A DNA stretch of 31,092 bases from a virus: positions 1-31,092 of IMG/VR virus record IMGVR_UViG_3300017767_000068; one strand, given 5' to 3'. Shown one piece after another: positions 3,651 to 29,361 of the stretch. The notes under the pieces are model-generated. The model was not told the origin of the DNA. It did no database searches and saw only the letters and a list, made by a program, of their open reading frames with translations. Made by a program: the position numbers and the translations under genes. The first letter of the stretch is position 1. Each line of letters opens with the position of its first letter.

Positions 3651-3698
3651 ATTCCGCACAAAAGAGTAAAGTAATTAATATGAATAAAGGAAAATAAT

Positions 3699-3845
3699 AT
3701 GATACAGATAATAGGAATAGTATTCGTCGTGGCTTGTACCTCAATAGCATTAATCTCAATAATAGGTTATGCATTAGGATCTAGCTTTGATCAGAATAAG
3801 GAGTTAATGGATAATATGAATAAATTTGATAAGAAGAACAAATGA
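3699..3845 (+). CDS. Small membrane protein, 48 aa
   Basis: A short gene encoding one hydrophobic segment at residues 2-27 followed by a charged, Asn- and Lys-rich tail (KNK at the end). AAAGG lies about 10 nt before the ATG. The stop TGA overlaps the next start in ATGATAG (ATGA-type overlap at 3842), which supports translational coupling. It opens a run of four overlapping or abutting mini-genes, two of them membrane proteins. Confidence 0.6.
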   Translation: MIQIIGIVFVVACTSIALISIIGYALGSSFDQNKELMDNMNKFDKKNK

Positions 3846-8438: not shown

Positions 8439-10535
8439 ATGCAATACAATAACAATTCAAATTCATCATGGTGGCTAGGAGATAGCCTATTCGATAATAA
8501 TAATGTAGATATCCTTACTGGTTTAGAGGTAAAGGATAAGACACAAGATTTAATTAAGCTTGCTGGTTATCGAAGAGCAATAGCTAATTTCGTTAATATA
8601 GTTACAGGTAAAAATGTTCCTGTATATTTTAGTGGTTCAGATTCTTATACGGATGGTAAAGCGGTTAATATATCTGCTTCATTAAAAGATAAAGATTTTG
8701 ATGCTGCTGTTGGTTTAGCTTTACATGAGGGATCTCATATTAAGTTAACAGATTTTCAAGTGTTAAAGGATTTTCTTAGGAAGGATGATATTCTTAATGA
8801 TGAAATCGAATTGGTAAATAATATTGCTAAAAAGTATTTTGATCATTTAAGAAATGATCATCAATATCAAACGGATAAAACATTTAGATATATTAGAGAT
8901 CATGTTAAGCCATTATTAAATATAGTAGAGGATAGAAGAATTGATAATTTTATTTTTAAGTCTGCTCCTGGTTATAAAGGTTATTATCATGCATTATATG
9001 AAAAGTATTTTAATGCTAAGATAATTGATAAAGGTCTTATGTCTTCGGAGAAGAGAGATCTTGATTGGGATTCTTATATGTTTAGAATTTGTAATATTAC
9101 AAATGAGAATAGAGATCTTGATGCATTACCTGGATTAAGAAAGATTTGGAAAATAATGGATCTTAAAAATATTGGTAAGATAAAAAATACAGAAGATGCT
9201 CTTAAGATTGCATTGGAAATATTTTATGAAGTAGAGGAAAATATACCTGCACCTGATTTATTTCAGAAAGATGATAATACAGGGGATGAAGAATCCAATG
9301 ATGATAATAGAGGAGAAGATTCGGATTGTCAAGGTGATAATTTAGGATGTTCAAGTCCTAAAGGATCTATTGAAGGCGATAGTGATGATGATGGTTCGAA
9401 GGCTGAAGGAGAAGAAGCTAAGAAGTCTGGTGGTTCAAGTTCGGTTGGTAATGGTCCTATGTCTCCTCCTCAGAATAGAAAATTAGCTAATGCTATTAAG
9501 AAGCAGGAAGATTTTATTCGTGGTGAGATAAAGAAAACAAAAATGAATAAAACGGATCAAAAGAAAATGAAGGCTTTAGAAGAGTCGGGTTCGGAAATTA
9601 AAAAGGTAGGATCCACGTATTTTAATAGATGGGTGAGTAAAAATAAAAAGCCTGATACAGAATGTATTGTTATTAATAAATTAACAAAAGGGTTAATTGA
9701 TAGTGGTGGTTATGATTTTTTGATTAGTCATGAATATCATAGATGGAGAAAGGAAGCAAATGCGGAAGCCATAGTAAAGGGTATTAGATTAGGTACGATG
9801 CTCGGTAAGAAATTAAAATTAAGAAGTGAAGAAAGAAATACTAAATTTTCTAGATTAGATTCTGGTAAGATTGATAAGAGATTAATCGCTTCATTAGGTT
9901 ATGGTGCGGAGAGAGTATTTCAGCAGGTAATGAATGATAAATATACTCCTGCTAATGTTCATATTAGTATTGATGCTAGTGGTTCGATGAGTGGAGATAA
10001 ATGGTATTCTAGTCAGACAGCAGTGGTTGCTATTGCTAAGGCAGCTTCGATGGTGGATAATTTAGATATACAATTATCATATAGAACAACAACAGGTAAG
10101 GAAGGAATACCTTGTGTGATGATTGCTTATGATTCTAGAGTAGATAAATTTAATAAGATTAGAAGTTTGTTTAAGTATATTACACCTTCTTCTTTAACAC
10201 CTGAAGGTTTAACATTCGAAGCTATTCAAAATCATTTAGTAAAAGCTTCTGGGGATAGAGAAAGTTATTTTATTAATTTCTCTGATGGAGAACCTTATTG
10301 TAATCCTAAAGGATTTTATTATGCAGGTGATGAAGCTGCAGCTCATACGAAAGGTGAGATTGATAAAATGAGAAAGAAAGGTATTAAGGTTCTTAGTTAT
10401 TTCATTTCAGGATATAAGAGAGATGAGGTAGGTAGTACATTTAGAAAGATGTATGGTAAGTCATCAGCTAATGTTGATGTATCTTCATTAGTGCCATTAG
10501 CAAAGACATTAAATAATTTATTTCTAACTAAATAA
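8439..10535 (+). CDS. CobT-like VWA protein with HExxH metallopeptidase-like domain
   Basis: A 698-residue protein in three parts. The N-terminal domain has HEGSH at 96-100 and an ED-RRID segment at 164-169, the arrangement of zinc-metallopeptidase-like domains fused to VWA modules, where the later Glu can be the third ligand. A disordered acidic linker (about 280-345) rich in Asp, Ser and Gly follows. The C-terminal VWA domain carries the MIDAS motif DASGS at 512-516 and a further Asp at 616 (FSDGE). It is the natural partner of the AAA+ ATPase at 1107-2276, as in CobS/CobT and MoxR/VWA pairs. Whether the HExxH is catalytic is unknown. It has tandem promoters of its own. Confidence 0.85.
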   Translation: MQYNNNSNSSWWLGDSLFDNNNVDILTGLEVKDKTQDLIKLAGYRRAIANFVNIVTGKNVPVYFSGSDSYTDGKAVNISASLKDKDFDAAVGLALHEGSHIKLTDFQVLKDFLRKDDILNDEIELVNNIAKKYFDHLRNDHQYQTDKTFRYIRDHVKPLLNIVEDRRIDNFIFKSAPGYKGYYHALYEKYFNAKIIDKGLMSSEKRDLDWDSYMFRICNITNENRDLDALPGLRKIWKIMDLKNIGKIKNTEDALKIALEIFYEVEENIPAPDLFQKDDNTGDEESNDDNRGEDSDCQGDNLGCSSPKGSIEGDSDDDGSKAEGEEAKKSGGSSSVGNGPMSPPQNRKLANAIKKQEDFIRGEIKKTKMNKTDQKKMKALEESGSEIKKVGSTYFNRWVSKNKKPDTECIVINKLTKGLIDSGGYDFLISHEYHRWRKEANAEAIVKGIRLGTMLGKKLKLRSEERNTKFSRLDSGKIDKRLIASLGYGAERVFQQVMNDKYTPANVHISIDASGSMSGDKWYSSQTAVVAIAKAASMVDNLDIQLSYRTTTGKEGIPCVMIAYDSRVDKFNKIRSLFKYITPSSLTPEGLTFEAIQNHLVKASGDRESYFINFSDGEPYCNPKGFYYAGDEAAAHTKGEIDKMRKKGIKVLSYFISGYKRDEVGSTFRKMYGKSSANVDVSSLVPLAKTLNNLFLTK

Positions 10536-14578: not shown

Positions 14579-14635
14579 ATGATTACTATTAGATTTATGT
14601 TACCAAGAGTTGCGCACTGTCCAAAGGGTTGTTGA
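14579..14635 (+). CDS. Possible 18-aa leader peptide (weak)
   Basis: ATG to TGA with AGAGAGG about 10 nt upstream, encoding MITIRFMLPRVAHCPKGC. It ends eight bases before the ATG of the next gene, a leader-peptide position. Nothing else supports it. Confidence 0.25.
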   Translation: MITIRFMLPRVAHCPKGC

Positions 14636-14642
14636 CGGGTTT

Positions 14643-14894
14643 ATGAATATAGATCCTATACATAGCACTGATGACAAGCTTTTGCATTTAGCTGTTAACA
14701 ATACGTTTAGGTTTCTTAATGGCAAAAAAAAGATAGAAGATATTAAACCAGGTTCTTGGTTATTATCTAATGCAAACTCTATAGATACTATTGATACGAT
14801 GATTGAATATTATATTTCAATTGAAGCGTATGAAAGATGTGCAAGGTTGGTTCAGATTAAAGAATCAATACTTGATAAGGAAACGACTGTTTGA
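14643..14894 (+). CDS. Member of a three-copy small-protein family (83 aa)
   Basis: I use the ATG at 14643; an in-frame TTG at 14610 overlaps the possible leader peptide. The C-terminal module (IDTMIEYYISIEAYERCARL, then QIKES) matches the genes at 5811 and 11067, and the first half resembles the 5811 protein. Its TGA is immediately followed by the first paired base of the tmRNA acceptor piece, so gene and RNA are probably co-transcribed and then separated by processing. Confidence 0.7.
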   Translation: MNIDPIHSTDDKLLHLAVNNTFRFLNGKKKIEDIKPGSWLLSNANSIDTIDTMIEYYISIEAYERCARLVQIKESILDKETTV

Positions 14895-14943
14895 CTTATA
14901 TTAGCTGCATTGATGGACGAGGGTTCGATACCCTCCACCTCCA
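14895..14943 (+). ncRNA. ssrA: Permuted tmRNA, 3' (acceptor/T-arm) piece
   Basis: The T-arm is GAGGG (14919-14923), loop TTCGATA, CCCTC (14931-14935). Directly after it comes CACCTCC (14936-14942) and the discriminator A14943, which pairs fully with GGGGGTG at 14963-14969, including the G3-U wobble that AlaRS reads. Upstream, CATTG (14908-14912) and CTTAT (14895-14899) match CAATG and ATAAG of the other piece as a P2-like helix. CTA follows the discriminator, so CCA would have to be added after processing. This piece lies before the 5' piece, the order of circularly permuted genes. The exact 5' end is unknown. Confidence 0.85.
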
Positions 14944-14962
14944 CTAAATTATTTAACTTCAT
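14944..14962 (+). other. Intervening segment of the permuted tmRNA
   Basis: Nineteen AT-rich bases join the 3' end of the acceptor piece to the 5' GGGGG of the coding piece. In permuted tmRNAs such a segment is removed by tRNA-type processing (RNase P at the downstream piece, 3' trimming at the upstream one). No promoter is seen inside it. Confidence 0.7.
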
Positions 14963-15110
14963 GGGGGTGACTGGATTTGACACAATGATAAGGGTATAGG
15001 AAGGTCGACGCGTAACTGGCGAACAAGTTGAAATGGCGATGGCGGCTTAGGCACCCTGACCCAACGGCATTAATAGGGCAAGTCGTTAAAGCCCGGTGGT
15101 GGTTGGTTAT
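14963..15110 (+). ncRNA. ssrA: Permuted tmRNA, 5' (coding/tag) piece
   Basis: It starts GGGGGTGA followed by CTGGATTTGAC (14971-14981), the tmRNA D-loop consensus. The P2-like strands CAATG and ATAAG (14983-14992) come next. The tag frame is at 15018-15050. After it an H-type pseudoknot can be drawn: CCCT (15054-15057) with AGGG (15075-15078), and AACGGC (15063-15068) with GTCGTT (15082-15087), one G-U pair. AGGGT (14991-14995) can also pair with ACCCT (15053-15057) and close the tag loop, competing with the pseudoknot stem. I see no obvious PK1. The 3' end near 15110 is a guess. It is far smaller than host one-piece tmRNA. Confidence 0.85.
15018..15050 (+). other. tmRNA proteolysis tag, GEQVEMAMAA
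   Basis: The frame GGC GAA ... GCT TAG encodes ten residues ending in two Ala after a hydrophobic-Ala pair, the ending recognised by ClpXP-type proteases. It is preceded by TAACT, comparable to the bases that set the resume codon in known tmRNAs. The opening Gly-Glu matches Bacteroidota tags as I recall them (GE..YALAA type). The tag is not translated on its own; the Ala charged on the tmRNA would precede it. Confidence 0.8.
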
Positions 15111-16026: not shown

Positions 16027-16566
16027 ATGAAAAAATTTCTAACAATCTTGTTGGTATCATTATCGATATCTGCAATATCACAAACAACAATTAACCCAGA
16101 CACAGTATGTGTTAATGCAACAGGAGAACAATATTATGTTGCTGTCACACCTACATCAACCTATCAATGGACAATAACAGGTGGTGGTGGTATTTTACAA
16201 ACAGGCCAAACCACAAGTTCTATTACAGTAGATTGGGGAGGTGTATCTGGTCTTTATCCTAATGCAGTAGAAGTAATAGAATCTAATGCGACTGGTTGTC
16301 CTGGCACACCACAACTCTTAGATGTATTTATTTTAGATCTATCAGGTAATACCATAGGACCATTTTGTCCTGGTGATCCAACAACACCATTAGTAGGTAG
16401 CCCTGCAGGAGGGACTTGGTCTGGTACAGGTGTAGTAGGTAATAATTTTCAACCATCAACTGGAGTTGGTAATTATGTATTAACCTATTCTATGGCTGGA
16501 TGTAATACTACAATAAATGTAACCGTAAATAATGGACCTATCACTGGTCCGATCCAACATTTTTAA
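16027..16566 (+). CDS. Secreted PKD/Ig-like protein
   Basis: A strong AAAGGAG leads a 179-residue protein with a Sec signal peptide (KKFLTILLVSLSISAIS, then Q at +1). The mature part begins with a PKD/Ig-like domain: YQWTITGGGG, an SSITVDWGG strand, then a GCPG turn. A second Gly/Thr-rich segment (GPFCPGDPTTPLVGSPAGG) follows, and the protein ends ITGPIQHF. The next protein's domain has the same Y-W-I, ITVxW, GCxG landmarks. It is the first of three secreted proteins in a row. Surface exposure or a virion role cannot be decided here; the signal peptide favours export. Confidence 0.75.
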   Translation: MKKFLTILLVSLSISAISQTTINPDTVCVNATGEQYYVAVTPTSTYQWTITGGGGILQTGQTTSSITVDWGGVSGLYPNAVEVIESNATGCPGTPQLLDVFILDLSGNTIGPFCPGDPTTPLVGSPAGGTWSGTGVVGNNFQPSTGVGNYVLTYSMAGCNTTINVTVNNGPITGPIQHF

Positions 16567-16567
16567 T

Positions 16568-17098
16568 ATGAGATGGTGGGTATTAATATTACTACCCCTT
16601 CATTTATTAGCTCAAGAAACCTATAACGATTGTTCAATTATACAACCACAATCCTATCAGGTTGATTATGAAGCTGATAAAATATACTATTGGTCAATCT
16701 CGCACGGAGACATCATTTCCGCATCATCTAACACTATCACCGTGCAATGGCCAGATAGTGCAGGAGACTACCTTATATCAGTTTATACGACTAGGTTTGG
16801 GTGCGATGGAGATACATCAGAATATCAGGTCTCTATATCTCCTTGTCCTTATGCAACTTTATTCTTTCCTAGTTCTTTTACTCCTAATGGTGATGGTATT
16901 AATGAACAGTATAATGTAGGTGGTAGATCGGTTAATGATATAGAATATATTGCAATCTATAATAGATGGGGACAACGAATATTTGAAGCCAATAGTAATA
17001 TGCCATGGGATGGAAAGGATAATCCTATAGGCGTTTATACCATAAATGTTTTTATAAAAAATAATAGATTTGTAAGACCTATAACATTAGTAAGATGA
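16568..17098 (+). CDS. Secreted protein with T9SS type-B (gliding-type) C-terminal domain
   Basis: I start at the ATG at 16568, which gives a signal peptide (MRWWVLILLPLHLLA, then Q at +1). A PKD/Ig-like domain (YYWSISHGD, NTITVQWPDS, FGCDGD) is followed from about residue 95 by SSFTPNGDGINEQYNV, YIAIYNRWGQRIFE, a WDGKD turn and GVYTINVFIKN. That order is the gliding-motility-associated C-terminal (CHU_C/TIGR04131-type) domain, a type-B sorting signal of type IX secretion. The product should cross the inner membrane by Sec and reach the surface by the host's T9SS. It ends 4 bp inside the next gene (ATGA). The domain call is confident; the function is unknown. Confidence 0.85.
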   Translation: MRWWVLILLPLHLLAQETYNDCSIIQPQSYQVDYEADKIYYWSISHGDIISASSNTITVQWPDSAGDYLISVYTTRFGCDGDTSEYQVSISPCPYATLFFPSSFTPNGDGINEQYNVGGRSVNDIEYIAIYNRWGQRIFEANSNMPWDGKDNPIGVYTINVFIKNNRFVRPITLVR

Positions 17099-27474: not shown

Positions 27475-29361
27475 ATGCCAGATATTAATAATAAAATAGT
27501 AAAGGATATCAATTATTTAGGTAAGGACTTTAATAGTCTTCGTGAAAATTTAATTGAATTTGCAAAAACATATTATCCTAATACCGTAAATGATTTTAAT
27601 GAATCATCACCAGGAATGATGTTTTTGGAAACATCCGCTTATGTAGGTGACTTATTAAGTTACTATATAGATAACCAATTTAAGGAATCGATGTTACCTT
27701 ATGCTACTGAAAAGCGAAACGTAACAGCAATGGCTCAAGCATTGGGATATATACCTAGACAGACTACTGCTGCAGCAGTAAATGTAGATGTATTTCAAAC
27801 CGTACCAGCTATAGGAGCAGGTAATACTAATAGACCGGATTATAGATATTCAATGGCTATAGATTCAGGAGCTACAGTAATAGCAGAAAATGGATCCGTA
27901 TTTAGAAATAAACAACCTATTGATTTTAGTTATTCAGGATCTAATGATTTAACGGACACTTCAATCTTTACGACGGATGATACTACTGGAGAAGCTACAT
28001 ATTATTTATTAAAGAAAAATATTAAATTTGAATCTGGAAAGGTAGCTAGTGAAACATTTAGTGTAGGTACGGCTAAGCCATTTTTACAATTAGCTTTGGG
28101 TAGAAAAAATATAATTGAAATAATTAAAGTTACTGATGCCAATGATAATGAATATCATTCAGTACCTTATTTAGCTCAGGATACGATATATAAAGAAATA
28201 ACTAATAATCAATTTAATGATCCGTCTTTAACCCAATACAATCATGAGACTCCTTATTTATTAAAACAAAAAAGAACATCTAAAAGATATATTACTAGAG
28301 TAAGAGAAGACGGAGCTATGATTATAGAATTTGGAGCTGGTGGTAATATACAAGCGGATGAAGAGATAATACCAAATCCAAATAATGTAGGTTCTATATT
28401 ACCAGGTGTAGCAGGACAATTAGATAAAGCTATCGATCCAACTAATTTCATGCATACAAGAACATATGGCCAGGCTCCTGGCAATACAACGATTACTGTT
28501 CATTATACTTATGGAGGTGGAATAGAAGATAATGTTTCTTCTCAAACTATTACTAAAATAGATACTCTTAATATATCATCTACAGGAAATGGATTAGATG
28601 AAACCTTATTTAATAATACCAAAAGTTCTATAGCATTAATAAATCCTGGTGCTGCTCAAGGGGGTAGACAAGGAGAAACTGTTGAGGAGATTCGAAGAAA
28701 TGCATTAGCATATTTCAATGCTCAAAATAGATGTGTAACTCGTGATGATTATATGATTAGGGTAATGACAATGCCATCTAGGTTTGGCTCGGTAGCAAAG
28801 GCATATGTAGCTCAAGATGAACAATTAAATAATCATACTAAATTACATAAACTAAATAACCCATTAGCAATTAATATGTATACATTAGGATATGATGCTA
28901 ATAAAAAACTTATTACCAATAATGAAGCAACCAAGGAAAATATAAAAAATTATCTTACTCCATTTAGAATATTAACAGATTCTGTCACATTAAAAGATGC
29001 TTTCATTATTAATATAGGATTAGATTTTGAAATAGTAACCTTACCAGGTTTTAATTCAAATGATGTATTATTAAAATGTATTGATGAAATGGTTGATCAT
29101 TTTAATATTGATAGATGGCAAATAAATGAACCGGTTATATTATCAGATATATTAAGTTTATTAATAAGTGTTAAAGGAGTACAATCCGTTCCAACAGCTA
29201 ATATTATTAATTTCTTTGATAAGGAGCAAGGGTATTCTGGTAATGTATATGATATAAAAACAGCAACTCGAGATGGCGTAGTATATCCTGCACTTGATCC
29301 AAGTATCTTTGAAGTAAAATATCCTAAATCGGATATCAAGGGTAGAGTAACAAATATATAG
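27475..29361 (+). CDS. gp6: Baseplate wedge protein gp6 (baseplate J family)
   Basis: A 628-residue protein beginning NYLGKDFNSLRENLIEFAKT and SPGMMFLETSAYVGDLLSYY, the hallmark start of T4-like gp6. The centre carries the baseplate-J segment with GETVEEIRRNALAYFNAQNR followed by CVTRDDYM, and later SDILSLLISVKGV. It dimerises to make the continuous ring of the inner baseplate and docks on gp25. Size is close to T4 gp6. Confidence 0.92.
   Translation: MPDINNKIVKDINYLGKDFNSLRENLIEFAKTYYPNTVNDFNESSPGMMFLETSAYVGDLLSYYIDNQFKESMLPYATEKRNVTAMAQALGYIPRQTTAAAVNVDVFQTVPAIGAGNTNRPDYRYSMAIDSGATVIAENGSVFRNKQPIDFSYSGSNDLTDTSIFTTDDTTGEATYYLLKKNIKFESGKVASETFSVGTAKPFLQLALGRKNIIEIIKVTDANDNEYHSVPYLAQDTIYKEITNNQFNDPSLTQYNHETPYLLKQKRTSKRYITRVREDGAMIIEFGAGGNIQADEEIIPNPNNVGSILPGVAGQLDKAIDPTNFMHTRTYGQAPGNTTITVHYTYGGGIEDNVSSQTITKIDTLNISSTGNGLDETLFNNTKSSIALINPGAAQGGRQGETVEEIRRNALAYFNAQNRCVTRDDYMIRVMTMPSRFGSVAKAYVAQDEQLNNHTKLHKLNNPLAINMYTLGYDANKKLITNNEATKENIKNYLTPFRILTDSVTLKDAFIINIGLDFEIVTLPGFNSNDVLLKCIDEMVDHFNIDRWQINEPVILSDILSLLISVKGVQSVPTANIINFFDKEQGYSGNVYDIKTATRDGVVYPALDPSIFEVKYPKSDIKGRVTNI

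Follow-up and report, generated by a model that had tools for sequence, protein, structure and literature searches.

A compact, circularly permuted tmRNA gene in a tailed phage that probably infects Bacteroidota

Does a short stretch in which the tRNA-like ends of a tmRNA appear in reversed order encode a functional two-piece tmRNA, and what kind of phage carries it? The window, by which we mean the whole 31,092-nucleotide stretch of DNA analysed, comes from a 31-kb virus record of the IMG/VR type. An earlier note, made from the letters alone, had proposed a permuted, two-piece tmRNA gene on a phage here, and had suggested a covariance-model search as a check. In that search, RF04321 (tmRNA_permuted), the merged Rfam model of permuted tmRNA, matched at window 14883-15050 with 58 bits, above its cut-off of 47 (E = 5.5e-9), while the standard tmRNA model gave no match in the window at its cut-off. 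RF01849 (alpha) and RF01851 (cyano) likewise gave no match in the window at the gathering threshold, and RF01850 (beta_tmRNA) scored the window copy weakly, at 44.8 bits, below its cut-off of 84. ARAGORN made no call for the window copy; it did call a permuted tmRNA with the tag GEHVEMAMAA in two contigs that share 94% identity with the window in the baseplate gene. Our family model R1, whose seed includes the window, gives its coding piece 137 bits.

To gather copies of the gene, viral contigs were scanned for patterns in the tag region, and a hit was kept if parsing showed at least six of the seven acceptor pairs together with a T-loop and a discriminator A. This yielded 60 distinct full copies including that of the window, and the acceptor strand lies upstream of the coding piece in every one, so that the arrangement sought in related phages was found to be permuted throughout. 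All 60 also have a GE-tag in an intact frame with an Ala-Ala end, following the pattern GE[Q/H/S/T]VE[M/L/Y]AMAA. Most spacers (49) measure 18-23 nt; ten are 68-70 nt long and one is 90 nt. Only 7 of the 60 copies encode CCA; in the window copy the discriminator A is followed by CTA. A search of phage-record DNA with 3.6 kb around the gene gave no match, and a scan of bacterial genomes was near-empty with a D-loop pattern that demanded three bases before TGG, where the window has two, so that the pattern is blind to window-like copies and the result carries no weight here. An AT-rich conserved stretch, GATATTTATATATGA, occupies columns 1-12 of the alignment described below, before or at the start of the acceptor piece, in many relatives and not in the window; it may be a promoter or a processing signal.

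A structure of 50 pairs was counted on an alignment of 46 copies. It comprises the acceptor stem and T-stem, P2 in three segments that join the pieces, a hairpin around the resume codon, a small stop-codon helix and an enclosed pseudoknot. The cells of the proposed pairs are paired in 92.2% of cases, compared with 33-48% after a shift of the partners by 1-3 columns; because one of the aligned sequences served to draw the structure, the paired percentage is inflated, the double changes less so. There are 194 double-changed cells against a shuffled mean of 64, and both sides have changed at 21 pairs, some of which link the two pieces across the spacer. The fifth acceptor pair, with its partners on opposite sides of the spacer, is C-G in 28 copies, U-A in 14, G-C in 2 and U-G in 2. 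Given the E value of the RF04321 match, the 60 copies and the covariation between the pieces across the spacer, we take this to be a real tmRNA. We are confident in reading the element as a circularly permuted ssrA gene, for a tmRNA, that belongs to a tailed phage of Bacteroidota, with its function assigned by analogy.

The anatomy of the window copy is given in Table 1. The positions that the earlier note had assigned to the individual elements were each confirmed on the sequence, and all the parts it named are in place; the gene itself reaches further than the extent given there. The 46-copy alignment adds a third helix between the pieces (the distal P2), the resume-codon hairpin and the enclosed pseudoknot. 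The alanine identity pair G3-U70, formed by 14965 with 14940 inside the 7-bp acceptor helix, is G-U in 45 of the 46 copies. Within P2, both sides have changed in 11 cells at one pair of the distal segment, and at four of the five pairs of the lower segment. Both stems of the pseudoknot downstream of the tag, S1 and S2, show double changes.

Table 1. Features of the tmRNA gene and of the genes discussed with it (window coordinates).
Feature	Position	Strand	Basis
Small upstream reading frame, last codons overlapping the acceptor piece	14610-14894	+	ORF list
tmRNA gene	about 14883-15104	+	RF04321 and 46-copy alignment
Acceptor piece: P2 strands, T-arm, acceptor 3' strand, discriminator A	14883-14943	+	RF04321; helices counted in 46 copies
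Distal P2 strand, partner 15003-15007	14884-14888	+	96% of cells paired
Upper P2 strand CTTAT, partner ATAAG 14988-14992	14895-14899	+	93% of cells paired
Lower P2 strand CATTG, partner CAATG 14983-14987	14908-14912	+	77% of cells paired, partly reflecting an alignment shift
T-stem and T-loop	14919-14935	+	100% of cells paired, 40 double-changed cells
Acceptor 3' strand CACCTCC	14936-14942	+	99% of cells paired
Discriminator A	14943	+	Sequence
Intervening spacer, 19 nt, presumed removed	14944-14962	+	Sequence; spacers of other copies
Coding piece: acceptor 5' strand, D-loop, P2 strands, tag, downstream pseudoknot	14963-15104	+	R1, RF04321
Acceptor 5' strand GGGGGTG	14963-14969	+	Sequence
D-loop region	to 14981	+	Sequence
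Resume-codon hairpin AACT-GGCGAACA-AGTT, 15014-15017 / 15026-15029	15014-15029	+	Covariation in 46 copies
Tag reading frame GEQVEMAMAA, stop TAG	15018-15050	+	Sequence; tag type in 60 of 60 copies
Helix CACC/GGTG around the pseudoknot, 15052-15055 / 15095-15098	15052-15098	+	46-copy alignment
H-type pseudoknot, 15063-15068/15082-15087 and 15076-15079/15091-15094	15063-15094	+	S1 92%, S2 84% of cells paired
Protein with CHU_C type IX secretion signal domain (host clue)	16532-17098	+	Pfam PF13585, E 2.3e-10
Baseplate wedge protein (myophage lineage marker)	27475-29361	+	PHROG 219, E 8.8e-21

How compact is this RNA? The leader, counted from where the coding piece begins up to the resume codon, is 55 nt long in the window and 54-61 nt in the window-type copies, versus 63-164 nt in the other permuted copies on viral contigs outside the Bacteroidota-phage type. 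The description 'miniaturised' in the earlier note thus holds for the leader in this comparison. Pseudoknot 1, which is present in most tmRNAs, is absent upstream of the tag; the leader gives it no room, with about a dozen nucleotides between P2 and the resume codon. In the window type the resume codon is glycine and is set inside a covarying hairpin, the fourth pair of which is UA in 39 copies, AU in 6 and another combination in 1 of the 46. Across the 60 copies, AACT is followed by CAA in 39 and by ACA or TCA in 6, and AACA is followed by CAT in 14, with one exception; thus, tag residue three and the base ahead of the resume codon change together. In single sequences the hairpin is often no better than in shuffles, and it is the covariation in the main family that carries the case. 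Several other permuted copies have hairpins like it, and the idea that the hairpin is unique to the window type was dropped. It has been reported that a hairpin can stand in for pseudoknot 1, with tagging tolerated (PMC3968760). The natural absence of pseudoknot 1 together with a covarying hairpin would be the counterpart of such laboratory replacements.

What is the phage, and what is its host? The gene for the CHU_C protein lies 1.4 kb downstream of the tmRNA gene, and to our knowledge the type IX secretion system is confined to Bacteroidota and their close kin. CHU_C was found in 8 of the 50 contigs with a window-type tmRNA and in none of the 24 with other permuted tmRNAs. Shine-Dalgarno usage in the window is weak (16 of 46 genes). 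Together with the hosts of phage isolates that have similar genes, these observations agree with the Bacteroidota host that had been proposed, and the host is probably a member of that phylum. The companion claim that Bacteroidota hosts have the one-piece tmRNA is borne out for the single genome covered, that of Bacteroides ihuae, which matches RF00023 and not RF04321; its support extends as far as that genome. Among 37 tmRNA-bearing contigs tested, two of them with other permuted types, 33 have a homologue of the baseplate wedge protein, with 43-94% identity, so the tmRNA gene is characteristic of a single broad lineage of myophages. Among isolates, the closest by baseplate are Flavobacterium phage immuto and Microcystis phage Mel-JY01, and neither matched RF04321. 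A PKD-like protein at 16027-16566 overlaps the CHU_C protein by 35 nt in a different frame, and the two may be parts of a single secreted protein, separated by a frameshift. Elsewhere in the window, 1107-2276 encodes an AAA ATPase (AAA_5, MoxR/CobS-like), and 8439-10535 encodes a large protein whose VWA domain is weak and whose PHROG match is cobalamin-biosynthesis-like.

The proposed course of events, from processing, CCA addition and charging to tagging and the benefit to the phage, is drawn by analogy with other two-piece tmRNAs. One transcript would be made from the permuted gene, host RNase P would cut it at 14963, and 3' processing enzymes would trim it to 14943. Since CCA is not encoded, we propose that it would be added to the acceptor piece. 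The two RNAs would be held together by the acceptor stem and P2, and alanyl-tRNA synthetase would charge the tmRNA by way of G3-U70. With host SmpB, the charged tmRNA would enter ribosomes stalled at the ends of broken messages and add GEQVEMAMAA to the product, whereupon the ribosome would be released and the product broken down. A search for SmpB in 35 phage records, many of which are fragmentary, gave none, so the host protein is probably used. Degradation of the tagged product by ClpXP is plausible. It is less certain than rescue, because the window tag ends in MAA instead of LAA, and the LAA end of the usual tag is bound by ClpX (PMC3968760). The phage's own copy would probably keep rescue going during the cutting of host and phage messages.

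Relatives of the gene vary in both tag and spacer. Tags of 37 residues with the same AMAA end occur in the same myophage lineage, in contigs L287, L291, L297, L298, L299 and L305; the tag of L291, for example, is GTQIKSVKAGIFASLAAIRLLATETVATEESVYAMAA. The five complete long tags are each exactly 37 residues, and the carriers tested are RF04321-positive. ARAGORN misreads these tags. The L305 copy, at 2280-2440, is without the 5' part of its coding piece, from either a deletion or an assembly error. The 90-nt spacer of L262 holds a complete tRNA-Ala (3674-3748), and a complete tRNA-His (L137, 640-712) lies in the spacer of crAss-like phage cr114_1. One case of a tRNA gene in such a spacer has been reported, and was called unique (PMC11915505). 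In crAss-like phages, the permuted tmRNA is preceded, at a distance of a few hundred bases, by RAGATH-9 and RAGATH-20 RNAs (L137 116-283, L149 384-552 and L157 228-329).

Could the gene be a decayed one, or its RNA a decoy that merely binds SmpB or blocks the host tmRNA? The tag-less tmRNA-like RNA of mycobacteriophage DS6A is a precedent (PMC4131195; PMC11915505), and a missing pseudoknot 1 and the silence of ARAGORN on the window copy would fit. However, the tag frame is intact in all 60 copies, the AMAA end is conserved, the helices covary, and five relatives keep a 37-residue tag open, which makes such a decoy quite unlikely. We give still less credence to a single uncut RNA, folded back on itself with the spacer as a mere loop. 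A 19-nt spacer is long enough to bridge the acceptor end, but an acceptor end left uncut could not receive alanine, and the spacer tRNAs (tRNA-Ala in one relative, tRNA-His in a crAss-like phage) would be excised. Furthermore, permuted genes mature into two pieces elsewhere (PMC11915505). As for a chance likeness to a tRNA T-arm beside a G-rich run, several BLAST matches of the acceptor region are indeed ordinary tRNA genes; an E value of 5.5e-9, 60 copies and, above all, the covariation between the pieces refute it, and we consider its probability negligible.

The origin of the gene is a separate matter, and one proposal for it, capture from an alphaproteobacterial, betaproteobacterial or cyanobacterial host gene followed by shortening, is compatible with a permuted phage tmRNA. 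The gene order is identical, and RF01850 does match weakly. That match, however, is far under the model's cut-off, the leader is shorter than in the alpha-, beta- and cyano-like viral copies compared, and the resume codon is glycine. The RNA is too short and its copies have diverged too far to support a tree, so the separate derivation proposed in the earlier note stands as a hypothesis. We regard capture as a serious possibility that falls short of being likely.

How does the permuted tmRNA of the window compare with known systems? In a survey of phage tmRNAs, 53 of 133 distinct structures were called two-piece, and those of Melnitz, Mosig and further aquatic phages were traced back to lineages that are alphaproteobacterial, gammaproteobacterial or cyanobacterial (PMC9004378). 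Like the Melnitz and Mosig tmRNAs, ours is phage-borne and permuted, with the acceptor piece first and host SmpB presumably used, whereas the Mosig leader is 79 nt and its tag GEDNFALAA. It shares gene order, tRNA-like domain and a P2 between the pieces with the RF04321, RF01849, RF01850 and RF01851 families and, unlike them, is without pseudoknot 1 between P2 and the tag. Closer in form are the permuted tmRNAs of crAss-like phages, Maribacter phage Panino and Chryseobacterium phage MA9V-3, with leaders of 59-62 nt, a glycine resume codon and hosts known or thought to be Bacteroidota; they differ in their tags, mostly longer spacers and phage families. R1 gives these copies 15-23 bits, and it sets the crAss-like ones apart from other permuted tmRNAs weakly. 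The Cellulophaga phages (Calle_1) also carry a tmRNA and have a Bacteroidota host, but theirs is a standard tmRNA with the one-piece order (RF00023, 86.6 bits).

In the open-access literature on permuted or two-piece tmRNA and phages, we found nothing on Bacteroidota phages. Two-piece phage tmRNAs have been published, and permuted ones are already annotated in public records of crAss-like, Maribacter and Chryseobacterium phages, so the novelty was overstated in the earlier note. The less expected part is the compact form: the leader measures 54-61 nt and leaves pseudoknot 1 no space, and the resume codon, which encodes glycine, sits in a hairpin that covaries. It is conceivable, though on balance doubtful, that these genes are a further permuted lineage in Bacteroidota phages, independent of the alpha, beta and cyano forms, which lost pseudoknot 1 and set its resume codon in a hairpin while its hosts have the one-piece form, and that the conserved 37-residue tags of one branch may do more than mark proteins for degradation. 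What the window adds is that a lineage of marine phages, widespread and with presumed hosts that have the other form, carries a compact two-piece tmRNA. Within one cell, one can then ask why phages carry a ribosome-rescue RNA of their own.
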